A stretch of DNA of 64,000 nucleotides from Agrypnia vestita (taxonomy: Eukaryota; Arthropoda; Insecta; Trichoptera; Phryganeidae): the NCBI GenBank assembly GCA_016648135.1, contig JADDOH010010096.1, positions 33,046 to 97,045 on the forward strand, written 5' to 3'. The position numbers and the translations under genes are program-made. Every line of letters begins with the position of its first letter. Positions within the stretch are counted from its first letter, which is position 1. Under the pieces are notes generated by a model. It saw only the letters and a list, made by a program, of their open reading frames with translations. It was not told the DNA's origin and ran no database searches. Positions 1,561 to 60,779 of this stretch are shown in pieces.

Positions 1561-1788
1561 TTAACACAATGATTTATACACAAAGTTTTATTCCACTAAT
1601 TTGAGTTATATAAGCCTAAGCGCTTTCGATGGACACAACCATCATTTACATTCTATTTGCCGGCCATATTGATTGACAATTAGTTCTAATATTGCCTCTG
1701 AAGATGATGGTTGTGTCCATCGAAAGCGCTTAGGCTTACATAACTCAAATTAGTGGAATAAAACGTTGTGTATAAATCATTGTGTTAA
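1561..1788. repeat. Long inverted repeat, two 85-bp arms, with a hammerhead-like motif
   Basis: Left arm 1561-1645 and right arm 1704-1788 are reverse complements over 85 bp with two differences that I can see, separated by a 58-bp spacer. The right arm starts inside the core of a hammerhead-like motif (1694-1735), so the left arm carries only the part of the motif downstream of that point. Inverted partial copies of the 3' end are a known outcome of Penelope-like element insertion, so I read this as an inverted pair of PLE terminal repeats. No coding remnant is seen inside. Confidence 0.8.
1694..1735 (+). ncRNA. Hammerhead-ribozyme-like motif (PLE-type, minimal stem III)
   Basis: Stem I is GCCT (1694-1697) with AGGC (1732-1735). 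The core CTGAAGA is 1698-1704. One extra T (1705) precedes stem II, GATGG (1706-1710) with CCATC (1717-1721) and a 6-nt loop. GAA is 1722-1724. Stem III is a single A-T pair (1725, 1730) closing GCGC. H17 is T at 1731. All conserved hammerhead core positions are present, but the extra base before stem II is not canonical. The tiny stem III is the kind reported for Penelope-like elements. Catalytic activity is not shown. Confidence 0.65.
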
Positions 1789-2368
1789 AATCATTATATA
1801 GGTTAACTTGATTGCGTGCATAATTATTTAAAAAAAAATCTATATCTTCTCTTTTCCACCGACATTCTTTAGAAGAGGACAGAAATTTACTCTGTCTCAA
1901 ACATTCCAAAAATTATTTACTTTCCGTATAAAACTTCTCGTAGACGGACGTTCTACTAAATAGCGTATCTCTTTCTAATAACTAGAGCACCAGACATTTC
2001 GATGGGCTAGTTTTGAAATATAATATTCCAAGACGTCTCGGAGCTACAAATAAAGCTTATCGCGTACTCTGTGCTTATACTACATGAAATAAGTTCAGGA
2101 AAGCTCTAAATTGCATTTATTCCGTCATTCGTTATGTAAAACCCATTTGTGGCTCTTTGTTAAAGTTACTGTCGAAAATCCAATATATTTCGAACCCTTC
2201 TAAATTTTAACCTGAAAATCTCACATCACACAACTTTGATACATTTGATCCATAAAGAAAATTGCAATTCATGTAAAAAAGAAAGTTTATTTATTTTCTT
2301 CTTGGATGAAAATAAAATAATGTATCATTGAAAGATTTGGAAGACACTTCGTGGTGCAACATTATATT
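1789..2368. other. No recognisable feature
   Basis: AT-rich sequence without an open frame of note, tRNA-like fold, long repeat or mobile-element end that I can identify. Confidence 0.4.
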
Positions 2369-2574
2369 TTAAAATATGTTTTACTTTACTTTGTAATTTA
2401 CACACACAATATGAGTTATTAAATTACTACTAACCCTCTCATCATCAGGTATAGATAATAACTTTATTATCTATACCTGATGACGAGAGGGACTGCTCCT
2501 CTCGAAACTATAGTAGTAATTTAATAACTCATATTGTGTGTGTGTATTACAAAGTAAAGTAAAGCATATTTTAA
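2369..2574. repeat. Inverted repeat of a PLE-like end with an asymmetric arm
   Basis: Left arm about 2369-2460 and right arm 2465-2574 are reverse complements around a 4-nt centre, but the right arm is about 20 nt longer. The extra part is the 3' strand of stem II plus GAAACTA of the hammerhead-like motif at 2474-2518; in the left arm GAGAGGG is joined directly to the TAGTAGT sequence. The same arm sequence recurs at 42940-43040 and, more degraded, at 22330-22490, so it is a dispersed family. Confidence 0.8.
2474..2518 (+). ncRNA. Hammerhead-ribozyme-like motif
   Basis: Stem I TAC (2474-2476) pairs with GTA (2516-2518). Core CTGATGA is 2477-2483, with an extra C at 2484. Stem II is GAGAGG (2485-2490) with CCTCTC (2498-2503), and GAA is 2504-2506. 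Stem III is AC...GT (2507-2514) with a 4-nt loop, and H17 is A2515. The extra C could instead pair with G2504, but that would consume the conserved G12. The related site at 42943 has T and A at the two equivalent positions, a covariation worth noting. Confidence 0.6.
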
Positions 2575-2588
2575 ACAAAGTTATGTAT

Positions 2589-2800
2589 TTATTTATTAAA
2601 AAAAGAAAACAGAATTGCGAACACGGAATATATGTCACATCAATATTCTTACTATTTTAAAACATAGCATGTTGCTTGTTCTATAAAAATAAGACTCACT
2701 TGCTAGTCTCCGGGAATGGTCTCGGACCACCGACCTCCGGATCATTAGGGGAGTATCTTAAACACTAGACGAGATTCCAACCGGAACTCCAATCACGGCT
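2589..2800 (-). mobile_element. tRNA-derived SINE, reverse strand
   Basis: On the minus strand a tRNA-like head with A-box-like TCTAGTGTTTAAGA and B-box-like GGTCCGAGACC is followed by a body that ends in a conserved tail (TTTAAAATAGTAAGAATAT, then about 25 more matching bases including CCGTGTTCGCA) and an A/T-rich run. The same head-body-tail order occurs on the plus strand at 32020-32212, so this is a family with at least two copies here. Like other SINEs it would use an internal RNA polymerase III promoter and a partner LINE. The exact head boundary (2780-2820) is uncertain. Confidence 0.7.
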
Positions 2801-2851
2801 CTTATGTTATACAAACGGGTACTCTACCAATCGATCGTGTTAATCGATCGA

Positions 2852-2898
2852 TTTAATTTATTAAATCGATACAAAGTGAATCGATTTAATAAATTAAA
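2852..2898. repeat. Perfect 19-bp-arm palindrome
   Basis: Arms 2852-2870 and 2880-2898 are perfect reverse complements around a 9-nt spacer. They are AT-rich and centred on ATCGAT sites. No assigned function. Confidence 0.7.
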
Positions 2899-3279
2899 AG
2901 CCAGGAAAGCCTGGCAGTAATCAGCCATCGATATTTGTGATTTACTATTATCAATGTACTAAAATATGTGAATAATTGTATTTTATCTTGCCATGACAAA
3001 CATTATTCCAACGAAATGACAGTGCAACTGTAATTCGGTTGGGCTGTAATTTTTTTTAAATCCGTCCAGTAATAATCTGTCATTTATTTCTTCGTTCGTA
3101 AGAATTAATATCGAGTTAATCGAAAATTACTGAGTTTTCCAATAGAAAATAACTAATAGCTATTACCCAATCATACCCTTTGATGTACACTTTCTCTCCG
3201 AAATAATTAGTGTTCGGATGTCATTGTCGATTACCTGGTTCAAAATAATTAGCCATTTGATATTACAGCCGGCTGGCTA

Positions 3280-4310
3280 CCTATCACTTTATAATTAGTA
3301 TTGAAAAACACGATTTTTCATTTAATAACATAAAATAATTATTCTCTGAGTATTATAGCCATTTATATAACATAATATTATTCATTATAACATAATGATA
3401 TTCTGCGATGACAATCTTAATCTGAAACTTCGACAGCGACTGGTCAAATGTTATATATGGTCAGTCCTGCTGTACGGAGTGGAATCGTGGACCCTCAAAG
3501 TGAGTAGCATGAACCGGCTGGAGGCGTTCGAAATGTGGATACATCGGAGAATGCTCCGGATACCCTGGACGGATATGGTCAGCAACACAAGAGTTCTTCA
3601 AAGAGCTAGAGTGAATAGAGAGTTGCTGACAAATATCAAAATCCGAAAGGTATCGTATTTGGGTCATGTGCTCAGAGGAGAAAAATACGAATTGCTCCAC
3701 CTGATTCTTATGGGCAAGATAGAGGGTCGTAGAGGTGTTGGAAGGAGACAAATTTCCTGGCTCCGCAATATACGCGACTGGACGGGCATAAGAAGTGTTG
3801 GAGAGCTGTTTCGTGCTGCCCAGGACAGGGACGCTTTCTCTCGGGTGATAGTCAACGTTGGGGGGACCTGACATGACACCAAAAGAAGAAGAAGATATAA
3901 CATAAAATGATCAATAATAGAGAATTATGACTGATTATAGTATATAATTAATTAAGAATTACGTATTACTAACAAGAATCTTGTATAAAATAATGAATAA
4001 CTAGATCGTGTATAAAGTAATTAATAACTGAAAACTGCTAATGAAAATCTTGTAAAAAAAATAATAGACAGATACTAAAATACTAACGAGAATCTTGTAT
4101 AAAATAATGAATAACCACATACTAGTGACAATTTTGGTATATAAAATAATTAATAACTAGACACTTCTAACGATAATCGTACCTATCTTATTAATTTAAC
4201 GAATAAAAGGGCATTACTGTCGGTTTGAATAAATGAAATTTTAGTAGGTAAAACAATGAATAACCAAATATTATAATCGATTATCTAATGTTTAAAATAA
4301 TATGTATTGG
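3280..4310. repeat. Degenerate AT-rich tandem repeat, split by an RTE insertion
   Basis: Loose repeats of roughly 40-60 bp recur here, with recognisable pieces such as AATCTTGTATAAAATAATGA and AATTAATAACTAGA (clearest at 3965-4170). The array continues weakly on both sides of the retroelement fragment at 3396-3895, suggesting the satellite predates that insertion. The period is irregular and the copies are diverged. Confidence 0.5.
3396..3895 (+). mobile_element. 5'-truncated RTE-like non-LTR retrotransposon with 10-bp TSD
   Basis: The open frame 3395-3871 (158 codons) matches the C-terminal end of RTE-type reverse transcriptases: LLYGVESWTL at the thumb region, then GHVLRGEKYELL, then the basic GRRGVGRRQISWLRNIRDW stretch. 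Only the tail of a protein that is normally around 1000 residues is present; the endonuclease and RT catalytic parts are missing, so it is not functional. The 3' end is a short AAGAAGAAGAAG repeat, usual for RTE elements. A perfect 10-bp target duplication, TATAACATAA, flanks it at 3386-3395 and 3896-3905, although similar words occur in the local satellite. The intact frame suggests fairly recent insertion. Confidence 0.85.
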
Positions 4311-4619: not shown

Positions 4620-4815
4620 ATGAATTTACAATTAAAAAGAGACTACATATACGGTCGAAAAATTTTCGTTAACTTACCAGACTGCCGTGGCGAAATTGGA
4701 TAATGCGCCATCCCCGGATAGAACGGAGGTCCGTTGGTTCGAATCCCGGTGGCAGTTAAAATATTTTTTCGTTAATTTAGATTTTCTGTATGTCTTTTCT
4801 AATTGATTAATAAAA
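4620..4815 (+). mobile_element. tRNA-cored short element with inverted ends, copy 1
   Basis: A tRNA-like core (4681-4756) is embedded in flanks shared with 14571-14754: upstream AGAGACTACATATACGGTCG, downstream AATATTTTTTCGTTAATTT and TGTCTTTTCTAATTGATTAA. The outer edges are roughly inverted (AATTAAAAAGAGAC against GTCTTTTCTAATTG), so this may be a tRNA-bearing MITE rather than a standard SINE. No coding capacity. Ends are approximate. Confidence 0.65.
4681..4756 (+). tRNA. tRNA-like sequence (pseudo-tRNA / SINE head)
   Basis: The acceptor stem closes over 7 bp (ACTGCCG with TGGCAGT, one G-T pair). The A box is TGGCGAAATTGG and the B box GGTTCGAATCC. The T stem and the anticodon stem have mismatches and no clean 7-nt anticodon loop is seen. 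I therefore read it as a tRNA-derived core of a repeat, not a working tRNA gene. The copy at 14630 has lost the B box. Confidence 0.5.
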
Positions 4816-6275: not shown

Positions 6276-6360
6276 ACAGTGGAACTTCGATATTAGCAAC
6301 AAAGATATTTGTAATTTATAGAAATTAACTCTGTGTACACCACTTTTTTATTGAAAAAAA

Positions 6361-6398
6361 TTCAACATGTTTCATAGCCAATGGCTTCTTCAGAATAA
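6361..6398 (-). ncRNA. Hammerhead-like motif, unit 1 of the dimer
   Basis: On the minus strand: CTGAAGA (complement of 6387-6393), one extra A, a short stem II GCC...GGC, an imperfect AT junction, GAA, then ACATGT as stem III with loop CATG and H17 T. Stem I pairing is poor, so this copy is probably inactive. Confidence 0.45.
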
Positions 6399-6499: not shown

Positions 6500-6541
6500 A
6501 TTCAACATGTTTCAAAGCCAAAGGCTTCTTCATCAGGATAA
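6500..6541 (-). ncRNA. Hammerhead-like motif, unit 2 of the dimer
   Basis: On the minus strand: CTGATGA (complement of 6530-6536), an extra A, stem II GAAGCC with GGCTTT (one G-T), GAA, A-CATG-T as stem III, H17 T. The stem I strands next to the core pair over only about 2 bp. Core bases are intact; stem I may have been longer in the ancestor. Confidence 0.55.
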
Positions 6542-6699: not shown

Positions 6700-6900
6700 A
6701 TTTACTGTTAACACTTTTTCTTATTTCTAAAATTTCTAATTTATCAAACTGTGATTCTGTATAATTTGTATGTAAAATTTGTAAACCTTGTTAATATCAA
6801 AAGAATGATCCATAGCCGAAAGATGGTTAGCAAATTCAGATTAATTATTACTATTTAAACACCTCAAGTGTTCCTTAACTCTAACTTCAAAATTTTTTAT
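6700..6900 (-). pseudogene. Penelope-like element GIY-YIG endonuclease tail, decayed
   Basis: On the minus strand the conceptual product reads NFEVRVKEHLRCLNSNN, a stop, then SEFANHLSAMDHSFD, with further stops after HSL. This is the C-terminal half of the PLE GIY-YIG domain (R-x-K/R-x-EH, then S-x-FA-x-HL...DH-F), as seen better preserved at 7837-8218 and 51236-51700. The GIY and YIG motifs themselves are not readable here. It ends towards the tandem hammerhead repeats at 6276-6557, the expected order for a PLE 3' end. Confidence 0.6.
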
Positions 6901-7836
6901 TTTAATATTTGTGGTGATAGTGATGAAGATAATAAAGGCGAATACTAAATATCAAATATAAAATCTACACCATTAAAAATGACGGTATTCAATTTATTTT
7001 AAAGATAAGTTTTATAATTTGAATAACATTATTAGTCTTCATTAATTAATGTTATTAATTCATTAAGTAATGTTATAAATTTTGTTTTGATAATAGTTTT
7101 TCACTGTAACATTTCTGGTACAGTAATAATTTTACCCCTCTCTTACAACTGAAACGAAGAACTACTTCGGGAACTTAAATTAAAACTTTCTCAGAAAAAA
7201 CAAAAGTTCTATGATCGTGATTCTAAATGAATAAAACAGTCGGATCTCTCTCAATTCTACCTTTTTCAAATAGGATGTTGATTTTACAATAGGTCGTTTT
7301 AACTTACTGACATACAGATTACCTCCATGTGTCCGCCCCCTAAAGTATTACGGTCACTCCATTAATTCCAATTTCAGTTTGTTTTCATATAGTAGAGCCT
7401 TCCGTTTATTCCAGCTGCTCCGGATATGCTGGGACAGTTGTAAACTGTAACCACCAAAAGAATAGACATTTTACTAATCAAATGGCGTTCAGTCTAAGTA
7501 AGACATCGATCGATAATTCGTGGAAAACCATCGACGTTTTTTATAATTTCTCCTTGCATTTTCAACCCTTTTTTTAAACTTTACACCGAATTTTTATAAT
7601 GTACAATGGTCTCTGGAAACAAAATTAAATTATACATACGTTCTTACTCTTGTTCTGTACTCTGCCAAACTCTTGTATCGATCAAAAATAGTCAAGAACT
7701 ATATTTTACATGTCACATCAAAGTATTTATGATTCGTATAACATTTTTATATTTTTTCTAAGGAAGCAAACACATAAGAATAATAATATAGGTAAATTTT
7801 TAGTCGATAATAAATATAAGGATGATAAATTTAGCC

Positions 7837-8218
7837 ATTCTGGTGTATATTCATAGAAATACAACGATTGTCCTGCGTTTTATATAGGGAAGACATCGCG
7901 TAATGTAAAAATTAGAGTACTTGCGATGTTTAAAAAGTAGTGCGTTCTCAGAATTTGTAAACCATTTAATTGAAGAAGACCACACATTCAGTAAAGTTCA
8001 GAAGTTAGTATTATTCATAAAAAACGGAATAGATAGTAGATTAGATAATTTATAGGCATTAGAGATAAGAAAAGTCATTAATATGAATCGTAAAATCATT
8101 AATAATCAGGTAAACTTATCTTTTAGTCCACTTTTAAATATGTTCCCTCTTAATATTCCCTGCGCATTCCCACCTCCTACCCCCACTATTGGCACTCCGT
8201 CCTTTCACACTGATGTAT
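7837..8218 (+). pseudogene. Penelope-like element GIY-YIG endonuclease C-terminus, decayed
   Basis: The reading HSGVYS, stop, KYNDCPAFYIGKTSRNVKIRV contains the GIY (here GVY) and YIG (here YIG) signatures, the CPAFYIGKT context and the following conserved arginine. After a frame change around 7925-7935 it continues SSAFSEFVNHLIEEDHTFS and, later, LDNL-stop-ALEIRKVIN, then a proline-rich tail ending at the TGA at about 8218. Known PLEs end in just this domain, which nicks target DNA for priming. Stops and a frameshift make it dead. A hammerhead-like motif follows within 50 bp, at 8263. Confidence 0.75.
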
Positions 8219-8262: not shown

Positions 8263-8308
8263 GATTCACCCTGAAGAAGCTACGATCGTAGCGAAACCTG
8301 GCTGGAAT
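8263..8308 (+). ncRNA. Hammerhead-like motif in PLE 3' terminal repeat
   Basis: CTGAAGA (8271-8277), an extra A, then a perfect palindromic stem II GCTACGATCGTAGC (8279-8292) and GAAA (8293-8296). The stem III / H17 side (CCTGGCTGG) does not give a clean A-T closure and stem I is interrupted. It lies directly downstream of the GIY-YIG relic, which identifies the element. Confidence 0.5.
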
Positions 8309-8443
8309 CGACAATAAATATAAGTTGTGTTTAACCAAAATATTTTTATTTATTTGACATATTTTATATGTTACTCACACGACCTTAGCACAGGCAACCT
8401 GCTGATAAATCAAATCGACGATCCGCACAGTCCGACATCCGTT

Positions 8444-11462: not shown

Positions 11463-11611
11463 CTTCTTTGGTATTATGCCGTGTTTTTACTACCTTTCTG
11501 GCCGACGTTACGAATCCCATTGCAGGCATCAGCCCTGATGATAGACCCTACAATGGGATCTGAAACGTCGGCTAGAAATTTCGTAAAAAGACGGCATGAT
11601 ACCCCAGAAGG
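11463..11611. repeat. Inverted repeat enclosing a hammerhead-like motif
   Basis: Left arm 11463-11525 and right arm 11550-11611 are imperfect reverse complements (for example GGCCGACGTT against AACGTCGGCT). The right arm contains most of the motif at 11531-11573. It is probably an inverted pair of PLE-like ends. Confidence 0.65.
11531..11573 (+). ncRNA. Hammerhead-like motif with GTC cleavage triplet
   Basis: Stem I AGCC (11531-11534) with GGCT (11570-11573). CTGATGA 11535-11541, extra T 11542. Stem II AGACCC with GGGATCT (one bulged A). GAA 11562-11564. Stem III is A11565-T11568, and H17 is C11569, giving the classic GTC triplet. Among the best copies in the window. Confidence 0.65.
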
Positions 11612-13649: not shown

Positions 13650-14309
13650 TATTTAATTGTCGAATGCAGACGAGCGACTTATAAAGCAGAGAATAAATAA
13701 ATAATTAATTTCTATTTTCAAATACTCTTTCCCGCCTTTACTTTTACTATTTACTCTCAAAACAAAGTTTTTTCCGGATTTCCGAACAGAAGTTCCGCCT
13801 GGATTCCCCAGACCCCAAGCCTGGACCCGAACCTCGGCTCGAATGCAAATAATAAAAGCAAAAAACACAATTAAAGGAATATTAAAACAGTGCTAAATGC
13901 AAATACCTACTCTTTGTTGTTTTAACTTCGGCCATAAACTAGCCCGAAAAATTCTGCCGCGGATTAACCAAGTGTTGCCGAGTTACGGACCTCACTAACC
14001 CCGTGTTGGGGGCGATTTTAATTACATTTTCCACTGTTTTTAACGGACAATAAGTCATTGTTTATTCTTCCCCGAATCTGACTCTTGTGTGCAGTGACAA
14101 CATTATTCAACAAATGTGAACTTAATTAACTTGTTTTTTTTTAATATTCTAGGCATACAGGTAAAGGTCAGATTGTTTTACGCGGTTTAAAATATTTCAT
14201 ATACGGCTATCGTAATCACAGTGATGTAAGTACATCATTAATATCATAAAAAACAATTCACACGAAGCAAACACATTGTGGTGAGACATAATATCTTTGA
14301 ATAAAATAA
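13650..14309. other. No recognisable gene
   Basis: A short GC-richer patch (about 13730-14040) without a recognisable product. Nothing else identified. Confidence 0.35.
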
Positions 14310-14530
14310 CTCTTTGTTTAACACCACTTTATTGAGTTTAAACCAACTCGTTTTAACTCACAGCTGAGTCTTCATCAGGGTTCAGTATTAACTAAACAAA
14401 AACAGAATTACAATCAATCAAGAAAGCGTTAAGGGAAGAAAGAGACAGAATGTCAACTGTGGTGGGGGTTAGGTGAGGGAGAGCGGGTATGAATGGGTGT
14501 AGTTAATTTGGAAGGGGAATATATCTAGAA
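14310..14530 (-). mobile_element. Penelope-like element 3' end, reverse strand
   Basis: On the minus strand a proline/serine-coding, C-rich tract (complement of about 14440-14530) precedes a hammerhead-like motif at 14341-14382 and then an AT-rich end. The same order, C-rich linker then motif, follows the GIY-YIG relics at 7837 and 51236, hence the assignment. No GIY-YIG residues are readable here. Confidence 0.5.
14341..14382 (-). ncRNA. Hammerhead-like motif with G12 changed
   Basis: Minus strand: stem I AACC with GGTT (14379-14382 and 14341-14344), CTGATGA (complement of 14372-14378), extra A, stem II GACTCA with TGAGTT, then AAA in place of GAA, A-CGAG-T as stem III, H17 T. The loss of the catalytic G12 predicts inactivity. 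Confidence 0.5.
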
Positions 14531-14809: not shown

Positions 14810-14851
14810 ACACCCTGACGAAGGAAAGGTTTTTCCGAAACATGTAGGTGT
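14810..14851 (+). ncRNA. Hammerhead-like motif, best-paired copy
   Basis: Stem I ACACC (14810-14814) with GGTGT (14847-14851), 5 bp. CTGACGA 14815-14821, extra A 14822. Stem II GGAAA with TTTCC, loop GGTT. GAA 14837-14839. Stem III A14840-T14845 around CATG. H17 A14846. Every core position is conserved. The only departure from the canonical fold is the extra A before stem II. Confidence 0.7.
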
Positions 14852-15524: not shown

Positions 15525-15740
15525 TACGGTCGTTGGACATATTTATGGGTTAAATAAAACTGATATTTTATACGAACCATATATTTTACTGAGAAGCAAA
15601 TCTATTCGCTGAAGTCTTATTCAGCGAACACCTCCCCGGTGATAGGATGCTCTCCTGATGACGCTGGAGAGAAAATGTCGAGATTTGCTTCTCAGTGAAA
15701 TACACGGTTCGTCTAAAATATCTGTTTTACACGTAAATTA
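15525..15740. repeat. Inverted repeat related to the 44.8 kb palindrome
   Basis: Left-arm sequence (GATATTTTATACGAACCAT, ACTGAGAAGCAAATCT) and its complement at about 15689-15735 flank an asymmetric centre. The centre contains a small hairpin TTCGCTGAA-GTCTTA-TTCAGCGAA and, to its right, CTGATGA and GAAAATGTC pieces of a hammerhead-like motif. Shares TTACGGTCGTTRGACATATT and arm sequence with 44765-44935. Confidence 0.65.
15644..15690 (+). ncRNA. Hammerhead-like relic
   Basis: TCTC-CTGATGA at the 5' side and GAAAATGTC-GAGA at the 3' side give stem I (TCTC with GAGA), the core and a GTC triplet, but the 9 nt between core and GAA do not form stem II. Probably a deletion derivative. Confidence 0.4.
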
Positions 15741-18580: not shown

Positions 18581-18800
18581 TTAATAGACACTTTGATTTG
18601 TATTTATCGCGACTTTAGTTTCGAGAGAAGCAGTCGCTCTCATCATCAGGTGTAACTGATAACCAACACTATTCGAGTAGGACAGGGTGTCGCGTAGTTG
18701 GGAGGATTTTTTGGTCGTTAGAGGAAACGCATCTCCGATTCTATTATTTATTAATTTGGCATTAACTTTGTGGAACGACATGATAATTCATATATAAATA
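18581..18800 (-). mobile_element. Penelope-like element 3' end, reverse strand
   Basis: Minus-strand sequence with a hammerhead-like motif (18607-18653) preceded by an open stretch (18581-18781) of no recognised domain. A second, different PLE end (18841-18960, same strand) lies immediately beside it. Both orders match PLE 3' ends elsewhere in the window, but no GIY-YIG signature is readable. Confidence 0.45.
18607..18653 (-). ncRNA. Hammerhead-like motif
   Basis: Minus strand: CTGATGA (complement of 18643-18649), extra T, stem II GAGAG with CTCTC and loop CGACTGCTT, GAA, AC-TAAA-GT as stem III, H17 C. Stem I pairs imperfectly (one mismatch in three). Confidence 0.5.
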
Positions 18801-18844
18801 AAAATAAAATACTTGTATAAGACCACTTTTGAGTTTATGTTTTA

Positions 18845-18887
18845 CACGACTAGTTTCTAGAACTACAGATGTTCTCATCTTCAGGTG
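18845..18887 (-). ncRNA. Hammerhead-like motif with GTC cleavage triplet
   Basis: Minus strand: stem I CAC with GTG, CTGAAGA (complement of 18878-18884), then T and G before stem II AGAAC with GTTCT, closing A, GAA, A-CTAG-T, H17 C. Here the extra T can pair with the A before GAA, leaving a bulged G; the same alternative fits the copy at 34540-34581. Confidence 0.55.
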
Positions 18888-19152
18888 AGAATATAAACTA
18901 AAATATCTAAGGTACTGATAGAGGTGGGTGGGTTATGTGTGGGGTCTCACATGTGAAATATTTTTTAAAATATTTTTTTATACGTAAATTTTTTAAATTT
19001 TAAATTTTTTACAATTTTAAAATTTTTTACAATAATTACGAGCAATCAAGAACTTCAGTAATAATATATATTTTTTTTAAATAATTTTTCAAATGATTTT
19101 TAAAAGCAGTGAACAAAAGACATTTCATTCGAATTTTTTGACAGTTATACAG

Positions 19153-19191
19153 ACCCTGATGATGGAATGATAATTTCTGAAACATGTTGGT
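19153..19191 (+). ncRNA. Hammerhead-like motif
   Basis: Stem I ACC (19153-19155) with GGT (19189-19191). CTGATGA 19156-19162, extra T, weak stem II GGAA...TTTCT, GAA 19179-19181, A-CATG-T, H17 T19188. Confidence 0.5.
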
Positions 19192-19784
19192 GAAAAAAAA
19201 CTCAGATAAAAGTAGATTTATACAAATATTATAATAATTTTTTTGAAATATTTAAACTCTAAATAATGAAAATATTTTGCTACTGTAAGAAAGTACGCAT
19301 TAATGGTGCCAGTGTGGGAACAGGGTGAGAATACAGGGCGGTCTACGCCCTCTGCGTAACCTGGTGCGGCGTGGAAATTCGTATGTAATTATAAAATATT
19401 TTAATTGGGCGTATTTGTATTTCGCAAGTTGCGCTTCGCTGGATAGTTATTAATAGTGGCTTTCCCGCCAGTTCATTTATGTAATAAGGCTTCACTAAGT
19501 GAAAATCGATAACGTCTACCTAAAACACACGGGACGACGTATTCGGCTCGGGAATTCTGGAAAATTTTTAACCCGCCGGCGCACTACATCCAACAAACTT
19601 ATTTCAATTACTTTCTCAACTGAAGCTTTTGCTATGCTTTTTCTATTAATTTTATGTGAAAAGATATGCAATTCAAGGACAATATAAATTTATGCACTTC
19701 CAATAAAGCTCGTTGTATTTCTCATTAGACCTTTGTTACACTGTTCTAAAACTGTGATGAATGTTATCTCCAAGTGCGAATTAA
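19192..19784. other. No recognisable gene
   Basis: Mostly AT-rich with a GC-richer patch around 19300-19580. No supported feature. Confidence 0.35.
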
Positions 19785-22329: not shown

Positions 22330-22490
22330 ACTTTATGCTACAAACACATTATTATTGCTACTATAGTTTCAAGAGGAGTAGACTCTCTCATCATTAGATA
22401 TATTTAATAACTACTCTAAAGTTAATGCGCTTCTCGAAACAGTAGTAGTAATAAATTACTCAAATATTGTGTTAATAAAAATTATATTTT
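22330..22490. repeat. Decayed copy of the 2.4 kb inverted-repeat family
   Basis: Shares ACTATAGT, the GAGAG/CTCTC hairpin halves, CTTCTCGAAACAGTAGTAGT and TTACTCAAATATTGTG with 2369-2574. On the minus strand the core has CTAATGA instead of CTGATGA (complement of 22391-22397). Confidence 0.6.
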
Positions 22491-33157: not shown

Positions 33158-34496
33158 TGTTCAAAGCATCAGTAATTTACTAACGCATAGAAATTTGAAC
33201 TGTGCGAGAATTACGTATCAGGATAGAAGAGACCCATTCTTGCCGAACCTTCTTTTACCCATACCTTCGCAGATAAATGACGTAATTCTTATTTTCCTTC
33301 GTTATGCTCTTGGTATAACATTTTCGTTAATGAAGACACCACAAAACTATCCAACTCCATCTGCTCTGATCTACACTATTCCTGATGGCTTCCTGGTGTG
33401 AGCTTTTCGTTCTTTCACCACCATCAGATCCCACCAACTAGTTGGCAACCTTCCACGGGGACAGTTCCTCGACTTTACTTTGTACCATCATTATTTATTT
33501 GTCAATTTCATTCGTACGTTTTGTGACATGGCCGAAGTGTTTCAGTATGCGCAATCGTACTGTGGAAGAAAAACATTGTCCAACAATTATTTAGCATTTC
33601 ATTTATTATCTCCAATGATGTGATCAAGATATAATAATGATAAAAAACCCAAACGCCTCGGCATTGAAGCAGCCGCCACTGACAAGCTCCCAAAGCGGAG
33701 TTCGCATTGTATCTGAGGTCAAATCTGCCCGGTCTCTTCGGAAAATATTGTCTTTGTCCCGGTTTCTAATAATTCACTTCTCTGTGTTATTATTGCATTA
33801 AAAAAATTCTTTTCACGAAAGATTAACTTTTATATAGCAGTTTTTGTATAAGATGAATAATGAGTATTTATTTTTTCAAGAATCTCTTTTCAATCCGGTC
33901 GTAGATTACGGGTGAGTGGCAACTCTCTAGATATTTACGTTAACAGGCATTGTAAAAATACACGACCCCTTAAAAATATTAACCGTAAAAATTACGTATC
34001 GTATTTATTCACTTTATTATTATATGCAGCTTTAAATAAATCTTTATAATCGCTCGTTCATTTTTTATATATAACCGTTAGGTGGATAAAGCGTATATAG
34101 GGAGTATCAGAAACAGTGGTCCAAATGGAGACTATCGGATTCGGATAAAAAAATATATTATTTTATATTATTAGCGCTTTTTTAAATTTTAAACCCTTTT
34201 TGCCACGAACTATATTTTCTTCAAAAAAGTAAAAACTATTTTTGAAATTAGCCATAAATACAAATCGGATACCAAGCTACACTCTTGCAGTAGCTACACT
34301 ATCATAGCACAGGTGCACCAATTTTTATCACGATAGATTGAGTATTTATGCTACAGCACTCATTTTTCAAAAATCACAAATTTTCGAATAACTTCCGCTT
34401 CGGACGAACCTATTTATTAGAGGCTCAATGGGTTACTAGTGACATCCAGTGATAATTTCCAGTTTTTAAAGTACTTTCTGTATAATAATTATAATG
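33158..34496. other. No recognisable gene
   Basis: A 104-codon frame (33087-33401) starts inside the palindrome's right arm and has no recognisable domain. The rest is AT-rich without features. Confidence 0.35.
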
Positions 34497-34539
34497 ACAG
34501 AATGTTAGTAAAGTTAGTAAAAACTACTACCAGATTTAA

Positions 34540-34581
34540 GGTCTACCGGTTTCAAGACGTACCCGTCTCTTCGTCAGGACC
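34540..34581 (-). ncRNA. Hammerhead-like motif, complete topology
   Basis: Minus strand: stem I GGTC with GACC (4 bp), CTGACGA (complement of 34571-34577), extra A, stem II GAGACG with CGTCTT around GGTA, GAA, A-CCGG-T as stem III, H17 A. All catalytic core bases present. Alternative pairing puts the extra A in stem II and bulges the next G. Confidence 0.65.
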
Positions 34582-34824
34582 AACTTTACACTACTTCATT
34601 CATAACACTATACACCCCAACCATAGTATTGTAAAACTATCACCACTATTGTTCACATGCGTGTTAGTCTTGTCAGAGAAATTGAACTACTGAACAACTC
34701 AGGGATCTAACGAGAGAGAGTGAGAGGGGGCGGGGTCTAAAGTGGGCGTTACCACATCTCTTGTGAACGCTAATGTAGTAGTGTAGTGAATGTAGTAGTG
34801 TAGCGAATGTAGTAGTGTAGTGTT

Positions 34825-34866
34825 GGTCTTGACCAAGAGATGGGTACGTCTCGAAACCGGTAGACC
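34825..34866 (+). ncRNA. Hammerhead-like motif with damaged core
   Basis: Stem I GGTC/GACC, stem II, GAAACCGGTA and H17 A are kept, but the core reads TTGACCA instead of CTGACGA, so cleavage is not expected. Confidence 0.45.
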
Positions 34867-35096
34867 GTAAATCTGGTAGTGGTTTTTACTAAGTTTACTA
34901 ACATTCTGTTATTATGTCTAACCACAAAGTTAATGCTTTAAATATTAATAAAACAATTATAATGATTTATTACGGATCCCTTATTTATTTTACTGATCTG
35001 ATAATTATACATTATAAATATTAATCAATTCTAAGATTGCATTGTACATATCATTGCAAGTGTTGCAAATAAATACTTGATAATTGTTTACCAATA

Positions 35097-42240: not shown

Positions 42241-42939
42241 TGAACAGAAGTGGTTAGACACTTCTTAAATTTCACTTACAAATCTGTATCTTCCATTCCC
42301 TTAGAATCTCGGGCTGCGATAATGTCAGACAAAGCTTGCCCTGAGCCTCTGTTGCGCCTAGTTGTTATGAATATATGTTTACTCTTTCCACTATATACCA
42401 TGAACAGATAAATCAGGCCTAAGACCACCGATCGCGCCAGTTGTAAGCAAGGTATGTATGTATGTATTCTGGAGAACCCAGCCATTAATTTGCATTTTGA
42501 GTATTGCGTGTGTGTTTAATAAGTATAACCGTGTATTAATCGATCGTCGTTTCGAGTCCGGCTCATGTTGCGCGTTAATAATGTTAGGTTAGTTTCGCCT
42601 CGTATGAATACAATGGCATTTCTTCTGCTACGCTACCAAAAGTACCGGGTAACCGCGTCACATCGAGGAGTCCTAAATTACTATCACTAGACAATTACTG
42701 GCCAAATTATATGTTAGACTAAACGTAAACTTAATTCAATCACGTAAATAAATTTTAAACATAGCTTTGAGCTTGCAAAAGCAGATCTCAAATAATATAT
42801 TAGACTTTTAATAAATGAACTTAAAGTAAAATCGCTTTTAGAACTTTTCTTAAAGCCTCTCTTTTAAACTTTCGATTTAAACTTCTTCAAAAAAAAACTC
42901 CACCCCAAAATACACCCTCTACAAAGACGCAAACGTTAC
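42241..42939. other. No recognisable gene
   Basis: No supported feature apart from a short GTATGTATGTATGTAT run at about 42452. Confidence 0.35.
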
Positions 42940-43040
42940 AACCTGATGATGAGAGGGATTGCTCCTCTCAAAACTATAGTAGTAATTTAATAATTAATAT
43001 TTTGTGTGTGTATTACAAAGTAAAATAGAACATATTTGAA
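42940..43040 (+). repeat. Single arm of the 2.4 kb PLE-like family with hammerhead-like relic
   Basis: CTGATGA (42943-42949), T, GAGAGG...CCTCTC, then AAA in place of GAA, ACTATAGT, A. The following TAGTAATTTAATAATTAATA and GTGTGTGTATTACAAAGTAA match 2510-2565. No inverted partner nearby. Confidence 0.65.
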
Positions 43041-44147: not shown

Positions 44148-44777
44148 CGCATAACATTTTGTTTCAAAATTCTACTAAGCCGCCTGTCAAATATAGACCT
44201 CTCCGTGACACTCCGTACACGTTATCCTTATTGAATTTGACAGTTTATAATATAACGTGATCCAACCAGGATGTAACCCGCCGTAGGCTAACCATCAACA
44301 AACCGGTTCTCCGTTTCCGCGATGTTTTAAATTAAATATATCGTAAGGGCATGAAAATTATATATCCAGAGAGAATTTCTGACATTTAATTTAGCAAAGA
44401 TTTGCTTACAGGGCTGCCTACTAAGCAAGTGAAATCCGACGACTGGCAAACAGCATTTTGACGAAAAAATGTTTATCATTTTTCTCAGAATCTTAATTGT
44501 GCGATTTTCAGCGGTTATTTTCAATTTAAAAAACATATAATAACGCAAATGTTGCGTTATTTAATATTACTAAAAAAATAAAATTAAGCCAAATGAAGCG
44601 TTAAACAAAGCTGCTACTTGTTAATTTACAAAATTCAAATAAACATAGATAATTGTAACTAGCTTTATAGACATACTCAAATTCATCAATGCTTATAAAT
44701 AGTCAAACACATTTTTAAAGGTAGTTTTATCAATTGTTTTATTAGAGTTAAGTTTGTTATTACGGTCGTTAGACATA
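44148..44777. other. No recognisable gene
   Basis: AT-rich sequence without supported features. Confidence 0.35.
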
Positions 44778-44929
44778 TTTAACTGCAATTTCGGATATTT
44801 TATACGCACCGTATGTATTACCGAGAAGCGAATCTCGACGTTTCGTTGGAATCTTATCCAACGAAACGTCGAGATTCGCTTCTCGGTAGTACATACGGTG
44901 CGTATAAAATATCCGAAATTACAGTTAAA
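44778..44929. repeat. Near-perfect palindrome, 73-bp arms, 6-nt loop
   Basis: Left arm 44778-44850 and right arm 44857-44929 differ at two positions. The centre, GTTTCGTTGGA-ATCTTA-TCCAACGAAAC, gives each strand a hairpin followed by GAAACGTCGAGATT, the 3' half of a hammerhead-like motif including a GTC triplet, with no CTGANGA. The arm sequence and flanks match 15525-15740. A palindrome this good is either young or conserved. Confidence 0.9.
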
Positions 44930-45421
44930 TTGTTTTTGTGCCAGATAATCTTTAATCTACGTTATCTTCTATTTTCGTCAATTAAGTGGCCAATTTCAAA
45001 AATTAAATTTTCTGATCAGTTTTTAGTGAGCAACTCATAACCGATCAAAGTTGATAATGATATCTTTTTATAATGTTTATGCTTAAATTTTAGTGTTTTC
45101 AGAAATTGAAACCTATTATTAGCATATTCGTTAGTCTGCCTGCTACACTAGCATCTTACTGTATTATAGCAGAAAATACATTTCCGGTTCGAAAGAAAAA
45201 ATATAAAAGTACTAAAGTATTAATAAATATAGATACCATCAGTTAATCAATCGGCTATAATACATATTTATACAGACGTTTACGCGTTTGAGTTTGACAC
45301 ATTTCCCACAACATAAAAATTGAATGTCAAAAATATAGTTGCCTGTATAAAAAGTAAAATCGACGTATGAAAATATAAATATCGATGTAATTCGCCCTAA
45401 AGTTACTTGAATGTTAAACAA

Positions 45422-45930
45422 TTTATATGTAATACTAGCTGTTCATACCGGCGTCGCACGGGTTAAGGATTAAGTTGAAAATAAATCTGTGAGAGGAAAC
45501 AAAGGTTTGATTCGAACGGTACAGATTTACAGACAGCGAAGAGGAAGATAAAAGGGGGGAAATGTCACATATGTCACCCGCCGAGTCCTTAAGAATAAGT
45601 TTCCAAATGTTGAGTTCGATCGGTCAAACTATACAGATTTACATCGAAAATATGTCAGGGGAGGGGAAGGGTTAAAATAATAGGGGGGAAATATCGCATA
45701 TATTACCCGTCGTATCCTTAAGAATAAGTTTCCAAATTTTAAGTCCGATCGGTCAAACGGTACAGATTTGCATCGAAAATATATCAGCAAAGAGGAAGAT
45801 AATAGGGAGGAAATGTCACATATGTCACCCGCCGAGTCCTTAAGAATAAGTTTCCGAATTTTGAGTCCGATCGGTCAAACGGTATAGATTTGCATCGAAA
45901 ATATATCAGCGAAGCGGTATAGATTTCTAC
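45422..45930. repeat. Tandem repeat of about 112-129 bp, 3.4 copies
   Basis: Units at 45521-45632, 45633-45761, 45762-45883 and a partial 45884-45930. Shared words: CCTTAAGAATAAGTTTCC, CCGATCGGTCAAACGGT, ACAGATTT and GCATCGAAAATATATCAG. Preceded by CTAGCTGTTCATACCGGCGT (45435-45454), a word like those seen near some RTE-type LINE ends. Confidence 0.85.
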
Positions 45931-46040
45931 ACATAAAATAATATCTTAATGTATTTTAATATAATTTTCACACCTCTTTTTTCTTCCTTTTTGATTATTC
46001 TATTCTATTCTATATTATACTCTAGTCTATATTATAATTT

Positions 46041-46076
46041 TCCTGAAGAAGGTTGAGTCCAACCGAAACTAGTTGA
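46041..46076 (+). ncRNA. Hammerhead-like motif
   Basis: CTGAAGA (46043-46049), extra A, stem II GGTTG with CAACC around AGTC, GAA 46065-46067, A-CTAG-T, H17 T46074. The stem I strands next to the core give 2 bp then a mismatch. Confidence 0.5.
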
Positions 46077-46213
46077 CAAATATATAGCGATAAAGTGGTT
46101 TAAAACATAGTATTTAATTTATTCTTAAATGTCTAATAATATTTCAAAATAATTTTTCAAATAATTTAGAAAACAAAAGAAATTATTCATTTTGATATTT
46201 TGGCATTAATAAA

Positions 46214-46325
46214 ACACCCTGACGATGGAAAGGTTTTTCCGGAATATGTAGATGTAAATAATAAAATGAAAGCAGATACATACAAATAATAAAATCAATT
46301 ATTAAAAATTTCAATCTAAAAAGTT
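46214..46325 (+). repeat. Dispersed PLE-like terminal repeat, copy 2, with damaged motif
   Basis: Matches 14810-14925. The hammerhead-like part (46214-46255) keeps ACACC-CTGACGA, extra T and stem II but has GGA for GAA, and its stem I and III have one change each. Confidence 0.65.
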
Positions 46326-47742: not shown

Positions 47743-47814
47743 GCCCTCGTAGCCTAGTGGGCATGACACTGTCTTCTCACACCGAGGGTTCCGGGTTCGA
47801 TTCCCGGAGAGGTC
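47743..47814 (+). tRNA. tRNA-Glu-like sequence, likely pseudo-tRNA or SINE head
   Basis: The A box TAGCCTAGTGG and B box GGTTCGATTCC are perfect. The T stem CCGGG with CCCGG closes, and the loop TTCTCAC would give anticodon CTC (Glu). The acceptor stem has two mismatches (GCCCTCG with AGAGGTC) and the anticodon stem is imperfect. The following 100 bp show no tail shared with the other SINE-like elements here. More likely a SINE head or pseudogene than a working tRNA. Confidence 0.5.
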
Positions 47815-47829
47815 ACTTTTTATCTACGT

Positions 47830-51034: not shown

Positions 51035-51128
51035 AGTAATCACTTAAGACAGCTGTTTCTAGTCATAGGCCCAGGGCCATCCCTATATAGATTTTCTTAT
51101 AAATATATTCGTCTCTTTGAGACTTCTA
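51035..51128 (-). repeat. Family R dispersed repeat, partial copy
   Basis: The complement contains GTCTCAAAGAGACGAA, GGCCCTGGGCCTATGA and TTAAGTGATTACT, in family R order. Confidence 0.6.
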
Positions 51129-51235
51129 TACTCTAGACATTATTAAAGAGTTTAAATTTACAATGTACAATTTGTTACTTATTATAGAATTAACGAAATA
51201 TCTAACATTTTACCAAAGTCAATTTTTCCAGCATT

Positions 51236-51700
51236 TTACACCACTTCTAAAATTAAAAATTTATTTAACAACATACACCTCTCAAATAAATGGGAAAAGA
51301 GCGGTATCTATATATTAGAATGTAATGATTGTGATGCACAATATGTAGGAATGACTACTAGAAATTTTAAAACTAGGATAAGAGAACATTAGTTGTGTTT
51401 AAAAAATAATAATTATTCGGAATTTTTCTAACCACTTGTTGGAAACTGGCCACACTTTTTATAAAGATAGATCTAAATTTAAATATACTAATATCAACAA
51501 ATTTTTCAAATTGTCCGCCCTAGAAACTTTAGAAATAAACAAAAAATTAAATTCTAATAATAACATCGTTAACAAAATAATAGCCCCATGTAAGTCACCA
51601 TTATTAACCATGTTACCTCGTCCCTCCCACTCCACAAATCACCCCCGCTCCCTAAAGATACAGGTATCTTGTGTTTGTATGTATGTATGTATAGATGTAT
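51236..51700 (+). pseudogene. PLE GIY-YIG endonuclease, frameshifted
   Basis: KIKNLFNNIHLSNKWEKS leads into GIYILECNDCDAQYVGMT and RNFKTRIREH, giving GIY, the C-x2-C pair, YVG (for YIG), the catalytic-context arginines and the EH. A stop follows (51391), the frame changes near 51430, and the domain continues NHLLETGHTFYKDRSKF and LETLEINKKLN in the frame 51436-51726, ending in a proline-rich tail. The domain is the target-nicking endonuclease at the C-terminus of Penelope-like proteins. The reverse transcriptase part is absent. Confidence 0.8.
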
Positions 51701-51740
51701 TAGTATACAGTACTTTCGCATTTTAGATTAGTTTAAATAA

Positions 51741-51780
51741 TGCTCGTTAATGACACGGACGTGTCGAAACCGGTAGCGTA
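51741..51780 (+). ncRNA. Hammerhead-like relic downstream of GIY-YIG
   Basis: The core is damaged (GTTAATGA), but the stem II hairpin ACACGGACGTGT, GAAACCGGTA and the downstream strand match the family at 34540-34581. Confidence 0.4.
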
Positions 51781-51899
51781 AATTCTATAATAAGTTACAA
51801 ATTGTACATTGTAAGTTTAAACTCTTTAATAATGTCTGAAAGAAATTGTTACATTGTAAGTGCCCAAGAAATAAAAAAAATTCTATACTTTAATTTATT

Positions 51900-57414: not shown

Positions 57415-57418
57415 TATC

Positions 57419-57994: not shown

Positions 57995-58330
57995 GTCAGA
58001 AGAATCTAGAACAGCCTATGACAATCTAGGATGATGTAAAACCTTCGGGAAACATCTATAAATTCCCAATACAACCGAGAAGCGACGAGGACCTTCTCCT
58101 TAATACTAGAGTAATCTAGAAAGTACTAAAGTATCAGAATTTTCGGGTATAAATACGGCACAGTTCAGCTTGTGTTGACAGTTCGTTCATTGCGAAATCG
58201 GCCGCGAAGTACGCCCAGTATGCCCAGGCGTGGGGGAATCTAAGCAATAAATAAAGCGGTAAGTACTGCAAACGAGAACTGGATGGAATCTTCTAGTAAA
58301 CGTCAAATACGTGCTACCCAGTGATAATAA
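57995..58330 (+). promoter_or_regulatory. LTR-like promoter region
   Basis: TCTAGAACA and TCTAGAAAG blocks, then GGGTATAAATACGGC (TATA, about 58147), an initiator-like TCAGCTTG and AATAAATAAAG at about 58248. This looks like a diverged LTR beginning near TGTCAGAAG (57994), but no matching end or duplication is found. Confidence 0.35.
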
Positions 58331-58696
58331 ACCGTTTGTTTTTAGGTTATATACCGCAAAAAAGTCATATTTAAAGAATAGCGTTAAGTTTAAACATGTA
58401 ATATGACTTTGAACATTGAATCGTAAAAATAAATTAATCGATAATTAATTTCCAGGGTTTTCATTCATCCTTCCCGTAGCCACAACACGTGACAATATTA
58501 AATAACACGGTTAAATGATATATATAAGGATGATTTTTTAAGTAAATCGAAGTTTTTTTAATTAATTTATGATGATTGCAAAAAAAATTATTAAAAATTC
58601 CGTTACTAGAACTAAGGAGCACTACAAAATTAAAAATATTCTCAGGTTTTCACGGCAGTTCAGAATTTTCTGGTTTAAGTTTTTGATATTCTGGAT

Positions 58697-58743
58697 GACG
58701 CGTGACGTCTTGGATCCTATTGCAGGGTCCGTCATCAGGGCTG
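58697..58743 (-). ncRNA. Hammerhead-like relic
   Basis: Minus strand: AGCC-CTGATGA, extra C, stem II of the 8654/11531 family, then AAG in place of GAA. Member of that family, inactive by sequence. Confidence 0.45.
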
Positions 58744-59092
58744 ATGCGTTGTGATTAAGTATAGACTTGCAATACCGTGTCTAAGCTGCATTCAAAATAG
58801 TGTAAATTAAAGAACGGTGCTCCGATTTAATTCGTGTTTTTCATAATCGATATATGTTACTGTAATAACACTTCAACTTTTTATAAAAAATAAGTCAGAA
58901 ATACTGAAAAAAAATGCAAACTTTGATATTGCATATCTCCGTAACTATTGATATTGGGCCATGGTTGCTTGAACATTTTCTACTTATTATCATGGAAGGA
59001 ATCCGCCTGTAATTTTTTTATTACTGGTTATGAGACACCCTCTACAGACCATTCTGTAATAATAAAATCTCTTTGTAACTTGTTGTAGCTAC

Positions 59093-59809
59093 TAGTGATG
59101 TAACGAATATTCGCATATTTTTGCATATTCGCAATCGCATTCGCATTCGCAAAATTGGAGCGAATATTTTTCAAATATGAACATCAGAATAAAACATAAT
59201 ATTAGGTTAATACAACATCCATTCATTTCTTATTTTTTTATTATTAAAAAAAGTAACTTTACCTCGTAATCACATTATCAGTCTTCACTTTACTTTATTA
59301 TTTGGTATTATTTATTTACCATCTACTTCTACATTGCGTAATAAAGCTTAAGATTTCAGATCACTAGTAAATAACAATTAATTTTTCATTAGCTTAGAAA
59401 ATATAAAATTTAATAATGAAATGTAAACAAACAAAAACAAATTCTTCTCTGAAACTTTTAACAGTCTTTACATAAGTTTTTAATGTGAAGTTTCTTAGTT
59501 TGGTTCTTAGTTAGGTTAGGTTAGTAATCTTCTTGAACCAAACTTAAAACCAAACAAAAACTATGTTCTTCAATTACAAACTATAAATAATTTATATTTT
59601 ATAAGAAAACACGTTAAACAAACAAAAAAAAATTATTCTCTATGCTTCTATTAGATCAACTCGGAAATTCTCGGAACAAGATGCAAACGGAACGCGCCTC
59701 GCGTGAAACTGAGCCGCTAAGCCATATATAATTGGCGCCAAATTGAAAAAAACTCAATATTCGTATTCGCATTCGCGAATGTCGGTTGCAGATATTCGTT
59801 ACATTACTA
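59093..59809. mobile_element. hAT-like non-autonomous DNA transposon
   Basis: Inverted ends TAGTGATGTAACGAATAT and ATATTCGTTACATTACTA are followed inside by clustered ATTCGC repeats. The 8-bp flanks GTAGCTAC (59085-59092) and GTAGGTGC (59810-59817) agree at 6 of 8, fitting an old hAT target duplication. No transposase frame in the 717-bp interior. hAT is chosen for the 8-bp duplication and the end sequence; other superfamilies would not give 8 bp with this terminus. Confidence 0.7.
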
Positions 59810-60253
59810 GTAGGTGCTTCAAAGACCCTTTTTATAGGAACGCCTTCATGTTTCATTGCGTCGTATAATATCAGTGTGAGACTTAGATACCGAAATCGTT
59901 ATGGATTCTCATACCCCGTTAGAATCGGTCCATCCCTTAGCGCAGGAAATGAGGCGGCATTATTTATAATATGGAACACGGAATTCTGTTCCCACGAACG
60001 CGGAAAGACAGCGCTGGTAACGCGTGGTGTTTTTCCGCCCTAAAGAACACCATGCTCACGTTTCTCGCATTTTATCTATCATGGCCACGTCCCACGCTTT
60101 GCATCCCATACATATTTGCCTTTAACGAGAATTTTGTGATCTTTTTTAAAATATAATATCATCGTCCGTTCGCGTAAATTCGGATTCTTTCTCGTTGTTG
60201 ATGTCATATTCAATAAAATGTTACTTATGTTAGTACATAACTTTTCTTTAATT

Positions 60254-60719
60254 CCCCACTGCAAAGGCTTCCTAGACTAGCAAACAGATACGAGCAACTG
60301 GACGTCTTTGCCAATAACTGTACAATATTCAAACATATATTAAAGGGTGTACTGAAAGATTACTAGTATTTGTCGAATTGGACTTAAACAATTGATTTGT
60401 ATGTATGTATATTTTATTATTATATTATGACTTTCAAAGCTTGTGCTATATTTTCTCTCTCTACATTATTACTTTTTTTTGTTTTTAAATTTCTATATTA
60501 TTATGTTTTTTTATGCTTCTTTCTTTTTACTATATATTATATTTATCATTATGTGTTTGTATCTGTATTCTAAGTATTTTCTTCTCACTTTGTCATGACT
60601 ATGTTTACATGTATTATGTTTTTTTTCTATTCTCTAAACTATATACCTATTATGTTAATGTACACTATACCTATCTATTGTAAAAATCCTATAGGGCGTT
60701 AATTAATAATAAATAAATA
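60254..60719 (+). mobile_element. Jockey-like element 3' end
   Basis: The last 37 codons read PLQRLPRLANRYEQLDVFAN then NCTIFKHILKGVLKDY and stop at 60364-60366, matching RLHSLGNEH...DIFA at the end of 10522-11079. A T-rich 3' UTR ends AGGGCGTTAATTAATAATAA, then ATAAATAA at about 60719, nearly the same terminal words as at 10263-10320. Confidence 0.7.
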
Positions 60720-60739
60720 ACGTCTTGCGGAGATTTTTA

Positions 60740-60779
60740 GTCTACCGGTTTTGAAACGTACCCGTCTTTTCGCCAGGAC
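60740..60779 (-). ncRNA. Hammerhead-like relic
   Basis: Minus strand: GTC-CTGGCGA, extra A, stem II AAGACG...CGTTTC, AAA for GAA, A-CCGG-T, A, GAC. Same family as 34540-34581, core damaged at two sites. Confidence 0.4.

Follow-up and report, generated by a model that had tools for sequence, protein, structure and literature searches.

Hammerhead-like motifs with a palindromic stem III in short, probably Penelope-like insertions of Agrypnia vestita

A 64,000-nt stretch of the Agrypnia vestita contig JADDOH010010096.1 (the window, to which all coordinates and counts refer) contains 21 hammerhead-ribozyme-like sites on both strands, which fall into ten or eleven sequence families. The cluster is real, and it is a kind of thing that is already known: the terminal repeats of Penelope-like elements (PLEs) have been described as carrying a minimal type I hammerhead that has no proper stem III and is thought to act as a dimer (PMC7761336, PMC6155905). 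The reading that PLEs carry the motifs in the window as well is supported by the anatomy of the surrounding DNA. Once tandem and inverted partners are merged, the sites correspond to about 19 insertions, which are likely short, mostly dead copies of related PLE families whose hammerhead leaders dimerised as proposed.

Results

The sites follow a common plan, in which a short stem I, CTGANGA, one extra nucleotide and a stem II of about 4-7 pairs precede GAAA, a short A...T segment, a non-G base and the other strand of stem I. CTGANGA and GAAA are intact and correctly spaced in 12 of the 21 sites (A, B1, B4, C1, C2, D1, D3, E1, F1, G, H and J, with letters denoting families; Table 1), and 11 of these 12 have U16.1 and a non-G H17, J being the exception. 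The other nine have a damaged or offset core; in E2, both core strings are present, but a short deletion shifts stem II. A first-pass annotation of this DNA had claimed more than 20 motifs, in agreement with our count, and 14 of the 15 coordinates it gave belong to the family alignment. The fifteenth, 28256 (K), was dropped because it has no intact core and is matched by neither of the covariance models introduced below (R1 to E 10, R2 to E 5), whereas four sites were absent from that annotation: 8653(+), 46039(+), 18607(-) and 34825(+).

Family B comprises four sites, C three, D three, E two and F four, the members being related copies or arms; F3 was assigned to its family solely by the stem III string, and the count for F includes the inverted partner F1i. 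The families, ten in lettering (A to J), had been taken for unrelated, with completely different sequences. This stands for the stems, but not for the downstream blocks, which are alike in G/I, I/J and E/J (z 5.7-6.6, exceeding all of 300 shuffles; three such pairs among the best 22 of 78 tested). A block resembling AATAAAGTGGTGTTAAACAA, about +40 to +75 from the core, sits between the hammerhead and the start of the open reading frame (ORF) in G, I, J and E1, whose families have little else in common.

The core departs from the canonical Rfam-type arrangement, in which stem II directly follows A9. In 12 of 12 intact cores, pairing is best when A9 and stem II are separated by one extra nucleotide, so that the spacing given at first pass has to be revised. 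An A, C or T occupies this position, and in no case a G. In D3, the strict descriptor favoured the extra nucleotide and the graded scan its absence, and in G the first stem II pair becomes G-A when the extra nucleotide is assumed. A published exception to the canonical core is an extra nucleotide in a viroid hammerhead, reportedly the subject of De la Pena and Flores (2001; cited in PMC6155905).

The segment after GAA had been read as a loop closed by a single pair. In 17 of the 21 sites, it is instead a perfect palindrome, represented by six sequences of 4, 6 or 8 nt (ACGT, ACATGT, ACCGGT, AGCGCT, ACTAGT and ACTATAGT). Because stem III is palindromic, two RNAs can form it together, and the sites are probably hammerheads of the known kind that are predicted to work only when two copies pair. 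Among ten cofolded dimers, the full double hammerhead with stems I, II and III was the lowest-energy structure for A, D3 and F1; stems II and III formed without stem I in B1, E1 and H, and other structures were lowest in energy for C1, C2, D1 and G.

That such motifs arise by chance, or as a low-complexity artefact of AT-rich and repeat-rich DNA, is exceedingly improbable, and we hold it refuted for sites with a graded score of at least 42. A strict descriptor found five sites in the window, compared with none in 292 and one in eight of 300 dinucleotide shuffles. With a graded score that includes a palindrome term, 11 sites, all of them counted, reached at least 42, against 0.20 per shuffle in 40 shuffles; shuffled windows, named at first pass as a test, do not match this count. 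Chance does account for much at lower scores: at 30 or above, there were 52 matches against 25.5 per shuffle, i.e., half are chance, and at 38 or above, 22 matches against 1.3 per shuffle include 7 that are not counted sites. All of these 7 lie among the 11 matches scoring 38-41, where they were taken for chance or repeats beside 4 counted sites. E2, F1i, C3 and F3 are outside the 52 matches and are supported by alignment, BLAST or covariance models. Since shuffles destroy repeats, the core was also permuted on the real window, and 60 permuted cores yielded a mean of 0.23 and a maximum of 1 match at 42 or above. Without the palindrome term, 7 sites scored at least 40 (permuted-core mean 0.20, maximum 1), and a palindrome was present in 10 of the 18 matches at 36 or above. 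Two further candidates stayed outside the count: 48447 (X), with a score of 41, was dropped as matched by neither covariance model, and 15651 (R1 E 0.062, R2 E 0.28) sits inside an inverted repeat of about 175 bp at 15555-15729, perhaps a miniature inverted-repeat transposable element, with relatives at 44745-44934.

Base-pair covariation also argues against chance and bears out the earlier view that a structure, rather than one repeat, is conserved. In an alignment of ten good sites out of the 21, which excludes B and J, both partners vary in each of the nine pairs of stems I and II. In this set, 88.9% of cells are paired, compared with 58.7% after shuffling (0 of 500 as high), and pairing falls to 18-53% when the partner is slid by one to three columns. 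A covariance model built from these ten sites (R1, searched to E 10) gave 18 matches at E<=0.01, ten inside the model and eight outside. A second model, R2, was built from five sites, one each of D, E, F, H and I, and searched to E 5. Its best 18 of 31 matches are all counted sites, 13 of them held out, and 13 of the 16 held-out sites outrank everything else. Members of families absent from R2 were recovered at E values between 0.0001 for J and 0.020 for C2, with A, B2, G, C1 and B1 in between; B4 and B3 ranked low, and C3 was not found. The covariance search proposed at first pass succeeds in the window with custom models and fails with those of Rfam, which gave no match in the window at the gathering cut-off and, up to E 5, 23 matches of which none is a hammerhead family. 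As a background for comparison, a related pattern had 32 matches in prokaryote genomes, which look like chance and of which one has a stem II of 4 or more pairs, and another pattern in IMG/VR had 15, none of which combines a stem II of at least 4 pairs, a stem I of at least 2 and a palindrome.

The DNA around the motifs has the anatomy of PLEs, as had been suspected, with a GIY-YIG endonuclease relic, outward 3' ends, target-site duplications (TSDs) and one-arm extensions. GIY-YIG relics had been proposed at three places. At 51741, the first part of the relic is matched by Pfam PF01541 with 32.0 bits (cut-off 22.6); at 8263 the relic is read by eye, and two pieces of it given to Pfam had no match; at 6361/6500 the case consists of 78% similarity to 51362-51434. 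A GIY-YIG match above the Pfam cut-off is thus present in one element; apart from the two possible relics, the remaining sites, with their short copies, showed no sign of the endonuclease.

Inverted partners occur at six sites (A, B1, B3, C2, F1 and F3), with 3' ends pointing outward in six of six inverted pairs examined. An inverted arm, a tail and a short TSD come together in A and F1; the TSD is weaker in F3 and in B1, the latter also having no tail. In A, F1 and F3, the longer arm reaches the target duplication and enters a candidate ORF. Aligned arms are 97.5% identical in A, 96.3% in B1, 82.1% in C2, 88.9% in F1 and 95.0% in F3; a comparison of the ages of arms and TSDs was dropped, as repeat centres had lowered the arm identities obtained from BLAST. 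An ATG followed by a codon for S or N lies at +85 to +103 from the core start in 7 of 18 places (A minus arm, D1, F1i, F3, G, H and I), compared with 10.6% of random places at +75 to +125. The ATG at +100 in C2 is probably outside the element and is not among the seven, and a DNA pattern for the ORF start had no match in the window. The shorter arm of F3 begins no more than 1-2 nt away from where cleavage is predicted, which holds for one of six inverted pairs and could be chance.

Short tandem units suggest another carrier. Non-autonomous animal retrozymes, which would consist of short tandem hammerhead units, give rise to small circular RNAs and borrow their enzyme, have been described as 150-450-bp tandem repeats with type I hammerheads (PMC7229834), and E1/E2 is a direct tandem of units of about 141 bp with a motif in each. 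We nevertheless regard retrozymes as very unlikely: a tandem is present in just one of the ten or eleven families and the pair is not canonical, an endonuclease-like relic lies upstream of E1, and head-to-head arms and tails are traits of PLEs. Published invertebrate retrozymes, moreover, are described as having mostly a stable stem III (PMC7761336), in place of which we find a palindrome.

Other repeats in the window include tRNA-like stretches at 4681-4757 (26.6 bits) and 47743-47815 (24.4 bits; Rfam cut-off 29), possibly short interspersed elements derived from tRNA, and a tandem array at 45534-45914 (122-bp unit, 3.1 copies) that adjoins site H. Beyond the window, a first pattern search of IMG/VR had no match, and a second pattern returned two contigs, L001 and L002, with real-looking motifs that follow the same plan including the extra nucleotide. 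These have a stem II of 5 and 7 bp and reach 30.2, 22.6 and 23.0 bits in an R1 search of contigs L001-L012; two copies flank a 63-aa ORF in L002. The L001/L002 motifs had no Rfam hammerhead match up to E 1, and two BLAST searches of the IMG/VR motif stretches against phage records found no match. Similar motifs without the extra nucleotide occur at L004:2346-2403 and L003:6267-6300, and GTCGGCGAAAGCC, downstream, is common to L002 and L004.

Table 1. Hammerhead-like sites, carrier elements and related features (window positions unless a contig is named; E, expectation value)
Feature	Position	Strand	Description	Support
Site A	1694..1735	+	intact core; palindrome AGCGCT	strict descriptor, graded score, R1; R2 held out E 0.0015
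Site B1	2473..2519	+	intact core; palindrome ACTATAGT	strict descriptor, graded score; R1 held out E 0.0017; R2 E 0.013
Site E2	6360..6398	-	tandem copy of E1, unit ~141 bp; palindrome ACATGT	BLAST, alignment, R1, R2
Site E1	6500..6540	-	intact core; palindrome ACATGT	graded score, R1
Site J	8267..8309	+	intact core; stem III not palindromic	graded score, R1, R2 E 0.00011
Site C1	8653..8695	+	intact core; palindrome ACGT	graded score, R1, R2 E 0.011
Site C2	11531..11573	+	intact core; palindrome ACGT; within head-to-head repeat 11463-11610	graded score, BLAST, R1; R2 E 0.020
Site I	14341..14382	-	G12 changed; ACGAGT, not palindromic; ORF start MSHHNVFA at 14289	graded score, R1
Site D1	14811..14850	+	intact core; palindrome ACATGT	strict descriptor, graded score, R1
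Site B4	18607..18653	-	intact core; imperfect palindrome ACTAAAGT	graded score; R1 E 0.003; R2 weak E 0.72
Site G	18844..18888	-	intact core; palindrome ACTAGT; ORF start MSFHKVNA at 18781	graded score, R1, R2 E 0.004
Site D3	19152..19192	+	intact core; palindrome ACATGT	strict descriptor, R1, R2
Site B3	22355..22400	-	decayed core; palindrome ACTATAGT; inverted partner 22426-22472	graded score, BLAST; weak R1 E 0.23, R2 E 4.6
Site F1	34540..34581	-	intact core; palindrome ACCGGT	strict descriptor, graded score, R1
Site F1i	34825..34866	+	inverted partner of F1; decayed core; palindrome ACCGGT	BLAST, R1, R2
Site B2	42939..42985	+	G12 changed; palindrome ACTATAGT	graded score, R1, R2 E 0.003
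Site H	46039..46078	+	intact core; palindrome ACTAGT	graded score, R1
Site D2	46215..46254	+	decayed; ATATGT, not palindromic	graded score, BLAST, R1, R2
Site F3	51741..51779	+	decayed core; palindrome ACCGGT	alignment; R2 E 0.077
Site C3	58700..58742	-	decayed; palindrome ACGT	BLAST, alignment; R1 E 5.2; not found by R2
Site F2	60739..60780	-	decayed core; palindrome ACCGGT	graded score, BLAST, R1, R2
Element A	1519..1783		head-to-head arms, minus arm 47 nt longer; ORF start MNFHSVNETTLNL at 1558, minus strand	
Element A TSD	1504-1518 / 1784-1798		15/15 bp	0/400 shuffles as good
Element B1	2374..2565		head-to-head arms of about equal length	
Element B1 candidate TSD	2364-2373 / 2566-2575		10/10 bp	p 0.058
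Element F1	34498..34954		head-to-head arms, plus arm 46 nt longer; ORF start MSNHKVNALNINK at 34914	
Element F1 TSD	34487-34497 / 34955-34965		11/11	p 0.010
Element F3	51136..51880		endonuclease relic between head-to-head arms, plus arm 44 nt longer; ORF start MSERNCYIVSAQEIK at 51832	
Element F3 candidate TSD	51124-51135 / 51881-51892		11/12	p 0.087
GIY-YIG endonuclease relic	51300..51620	+	GIYILECNDCDAQYVGMTTRNFKTRIREH, two frames; just upstream of F3	Pfam
Possible degraded GIY-YIG relic	7800..8150	+	precedes J	read by eye
Relic	6824..6895	-	upstream of E1	78% similar to endonuclease region 51362-51434
AATAAAGTGGTGTTAAACAA-like block, G	below 18844	-		
AATAAAGTGGTGTTAAACAA-like block, I	below 14341	-		
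AATAAAGTGGTGTTAAACAA-like block, J	above 8309	+		
AATAAAGTGGTGTTAAACAA-like block, E1	below 6500	-		
IMG/VR motifs, L002	L002:3689-3732, 3994-4038	-	same plan incl. extra nucleotide	
IMG/VR motif, L001	L001:11739-11775		same plan incl. extra nucleotide	

Discussion

The sites resemble the dimer-type hammerheads of PLEs in their minimal type I core, self-complementary stem III and PLE carriers. They may differ from those hammerheads by the extra nucleotide after A9 and by palindromes of 4, 6 or 8 nt. Small PLE hammerhead variants that cleave as dimers are reportedly the subject of Lunse, Weinberg and Breaker (2017, RNA Biol) and Cervera and De la Pena (2014, Mol Biol Evol). In Aedes aegypti, repeat-associated hammerheads with a palindromic stem/loop III were proposed to act as dimers (Perreault 2011, PMC3088659, legend to Fig. 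S8); the likeness extends to the association with repeats, although the palindromes there are longer, with 10 bp in the dimer. The insertions also share the anatomy of Penelope from Adineta vaga, in which, by published description, one pseudo-long terminal repeat (pLTR) is inverted, one of the two bears a tail of 31 bp and TSDs measure 8-10 bp (PMC3846280), i.e., an inverted arm, a one-arm extension and a short target duplication. By comparison, copies in the window are mostly leader-only, and the main text of PMC3846280 does not contain the word hammerhead. For Poseidon of Anolis carolinensis (PAc), a protein-assisted hammerhead near the ORF start, an internal start of reverse transcription and extension of both DNA strands are reported, with a 30-40 bp tail that spans the distance from one internal start of reverse transcription to the other (PMC11167929). 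The ORF of PAc begins at stem II, whereas the candidate ATG in the window lies 85-103 nt after the core start, and arm extensions of 44-47 nt compare with the 30-40 of that tail.

The extent of the copies bears on how they were made. BLAST shows that shared sequence runs past the core start to about +98 in B, +111 in D and +74 in C, while cleavage is predicted at about +31 to +38, so that copies extend some 40-80 nt beyond. Because they run past the predicted cleavage site, the template RNA was apparently uncut at that hammerhead, which agrees with the report that cleavage mutants still insert in vitro (PMC11167929). In B, C, D1 and E, shared sequence begins 2-18 nt before the core, which would fit a template start there in many cases. 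Against a template start near the core, shared sequence reaches back to -88 in D2/D3, -93 in F1/F2 and -37 in F1/F1i, and in A and F3 the arms begin inside or after the motif.

We propose that each insertion carries the element's leader, made up of a type I hammerhead of minimal form, about 50-70 nt of spacer and, in several copies, the first ORF codons. Two leaders would pair via the palindrome into a double hammerhead, probably aided by the element's own protein, and a cut between H17 and stem I would trim or separate tandem transcripts. With the motif near the RNA 5' end, reverse transcription from near the ORF start would often copy the leader alone. As this start lies downstream of the ribozyme, inserted copies would come from uncut RNA; short copies would therefore end in hammerhead and leader, hence the many motifs in one 64-kb window.

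Several results weigh against this account. The palindrome is absent in B4, D2, I and J, seven of ten cofolds have a lowest-energy dimer other than the full double hammerhead, and the number of further pair types in the ten aligned sites does not exceed that in shuffles, of which 134 of 500 are as high. In work on a viroid, an extra core nucleotide is said to be able to weaken cleavage (PMC11014351), and an Aedes hammerhead with a palindromic stem III is reported not to have cleaved when tested (PMC3088659). On the side of the carriers, four pieces given to Pfam produced a single GIY-YIG match, a protein search returned no homologues of the endonuclease relic, and Pfam recognised no PLE reverse transcriptase among nine window ORFs. 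Taken singly, the TSDs of B1 and F3 do not reach significance, and no TSD was found at C2 and B3. In the Anolis study, reads are described as never ending at the cleavage site (PMC11167929).

The last observation also favours the idea that the motifs are fossil structures, ribozymes in active ancestors that are inactive here, with the extra nucleotide or the lost palindromes precluding cleavage. We consider this possible rather than probable. The nine damaged or offset cores and the broken GIY-YIG relic fit it. Against it, the core is intact in 12 of 21 sites and the stems of different families co-vary, so that selection probably acted on the elements from which the copies derive. As regards the copies that are dead, a fossil state is compatible with the proposed hammerhead leaders of PLEs.

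The palindrome may alternatively be, first of all, a signal for template dimerisation, with two leaders held on a protein dimer and head-to-head insertions as the result, a proposal by analogy that we think unlikely. Retroviruses have a palindromic dimer initiation site. Each leader would here be copied from one nicked DNA strand, with start points 44-47 nt apart, giving outward ends and a tail on one arm, and cleavage, if any, would separate the templates. Families would be expected to change the letters of the palindrome but mostly keep its self-pairing, as is seen, and leader pairing on a protein predicted to be dimeric in Anolis would suit head-to-head products.

An annotation relying on Rfam hammerhead models would miss this type of motif, as none of the 21 sites was found by them. 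The purpose of PLE hammerheads has been called unknown (PMC7761336). In the preferred reading of dimerising PLE leaders, one window links the palindromic stem III, the tail and head-to-head insertions, and indicates that the templates of the insertions were still uncut at that hammerhead.

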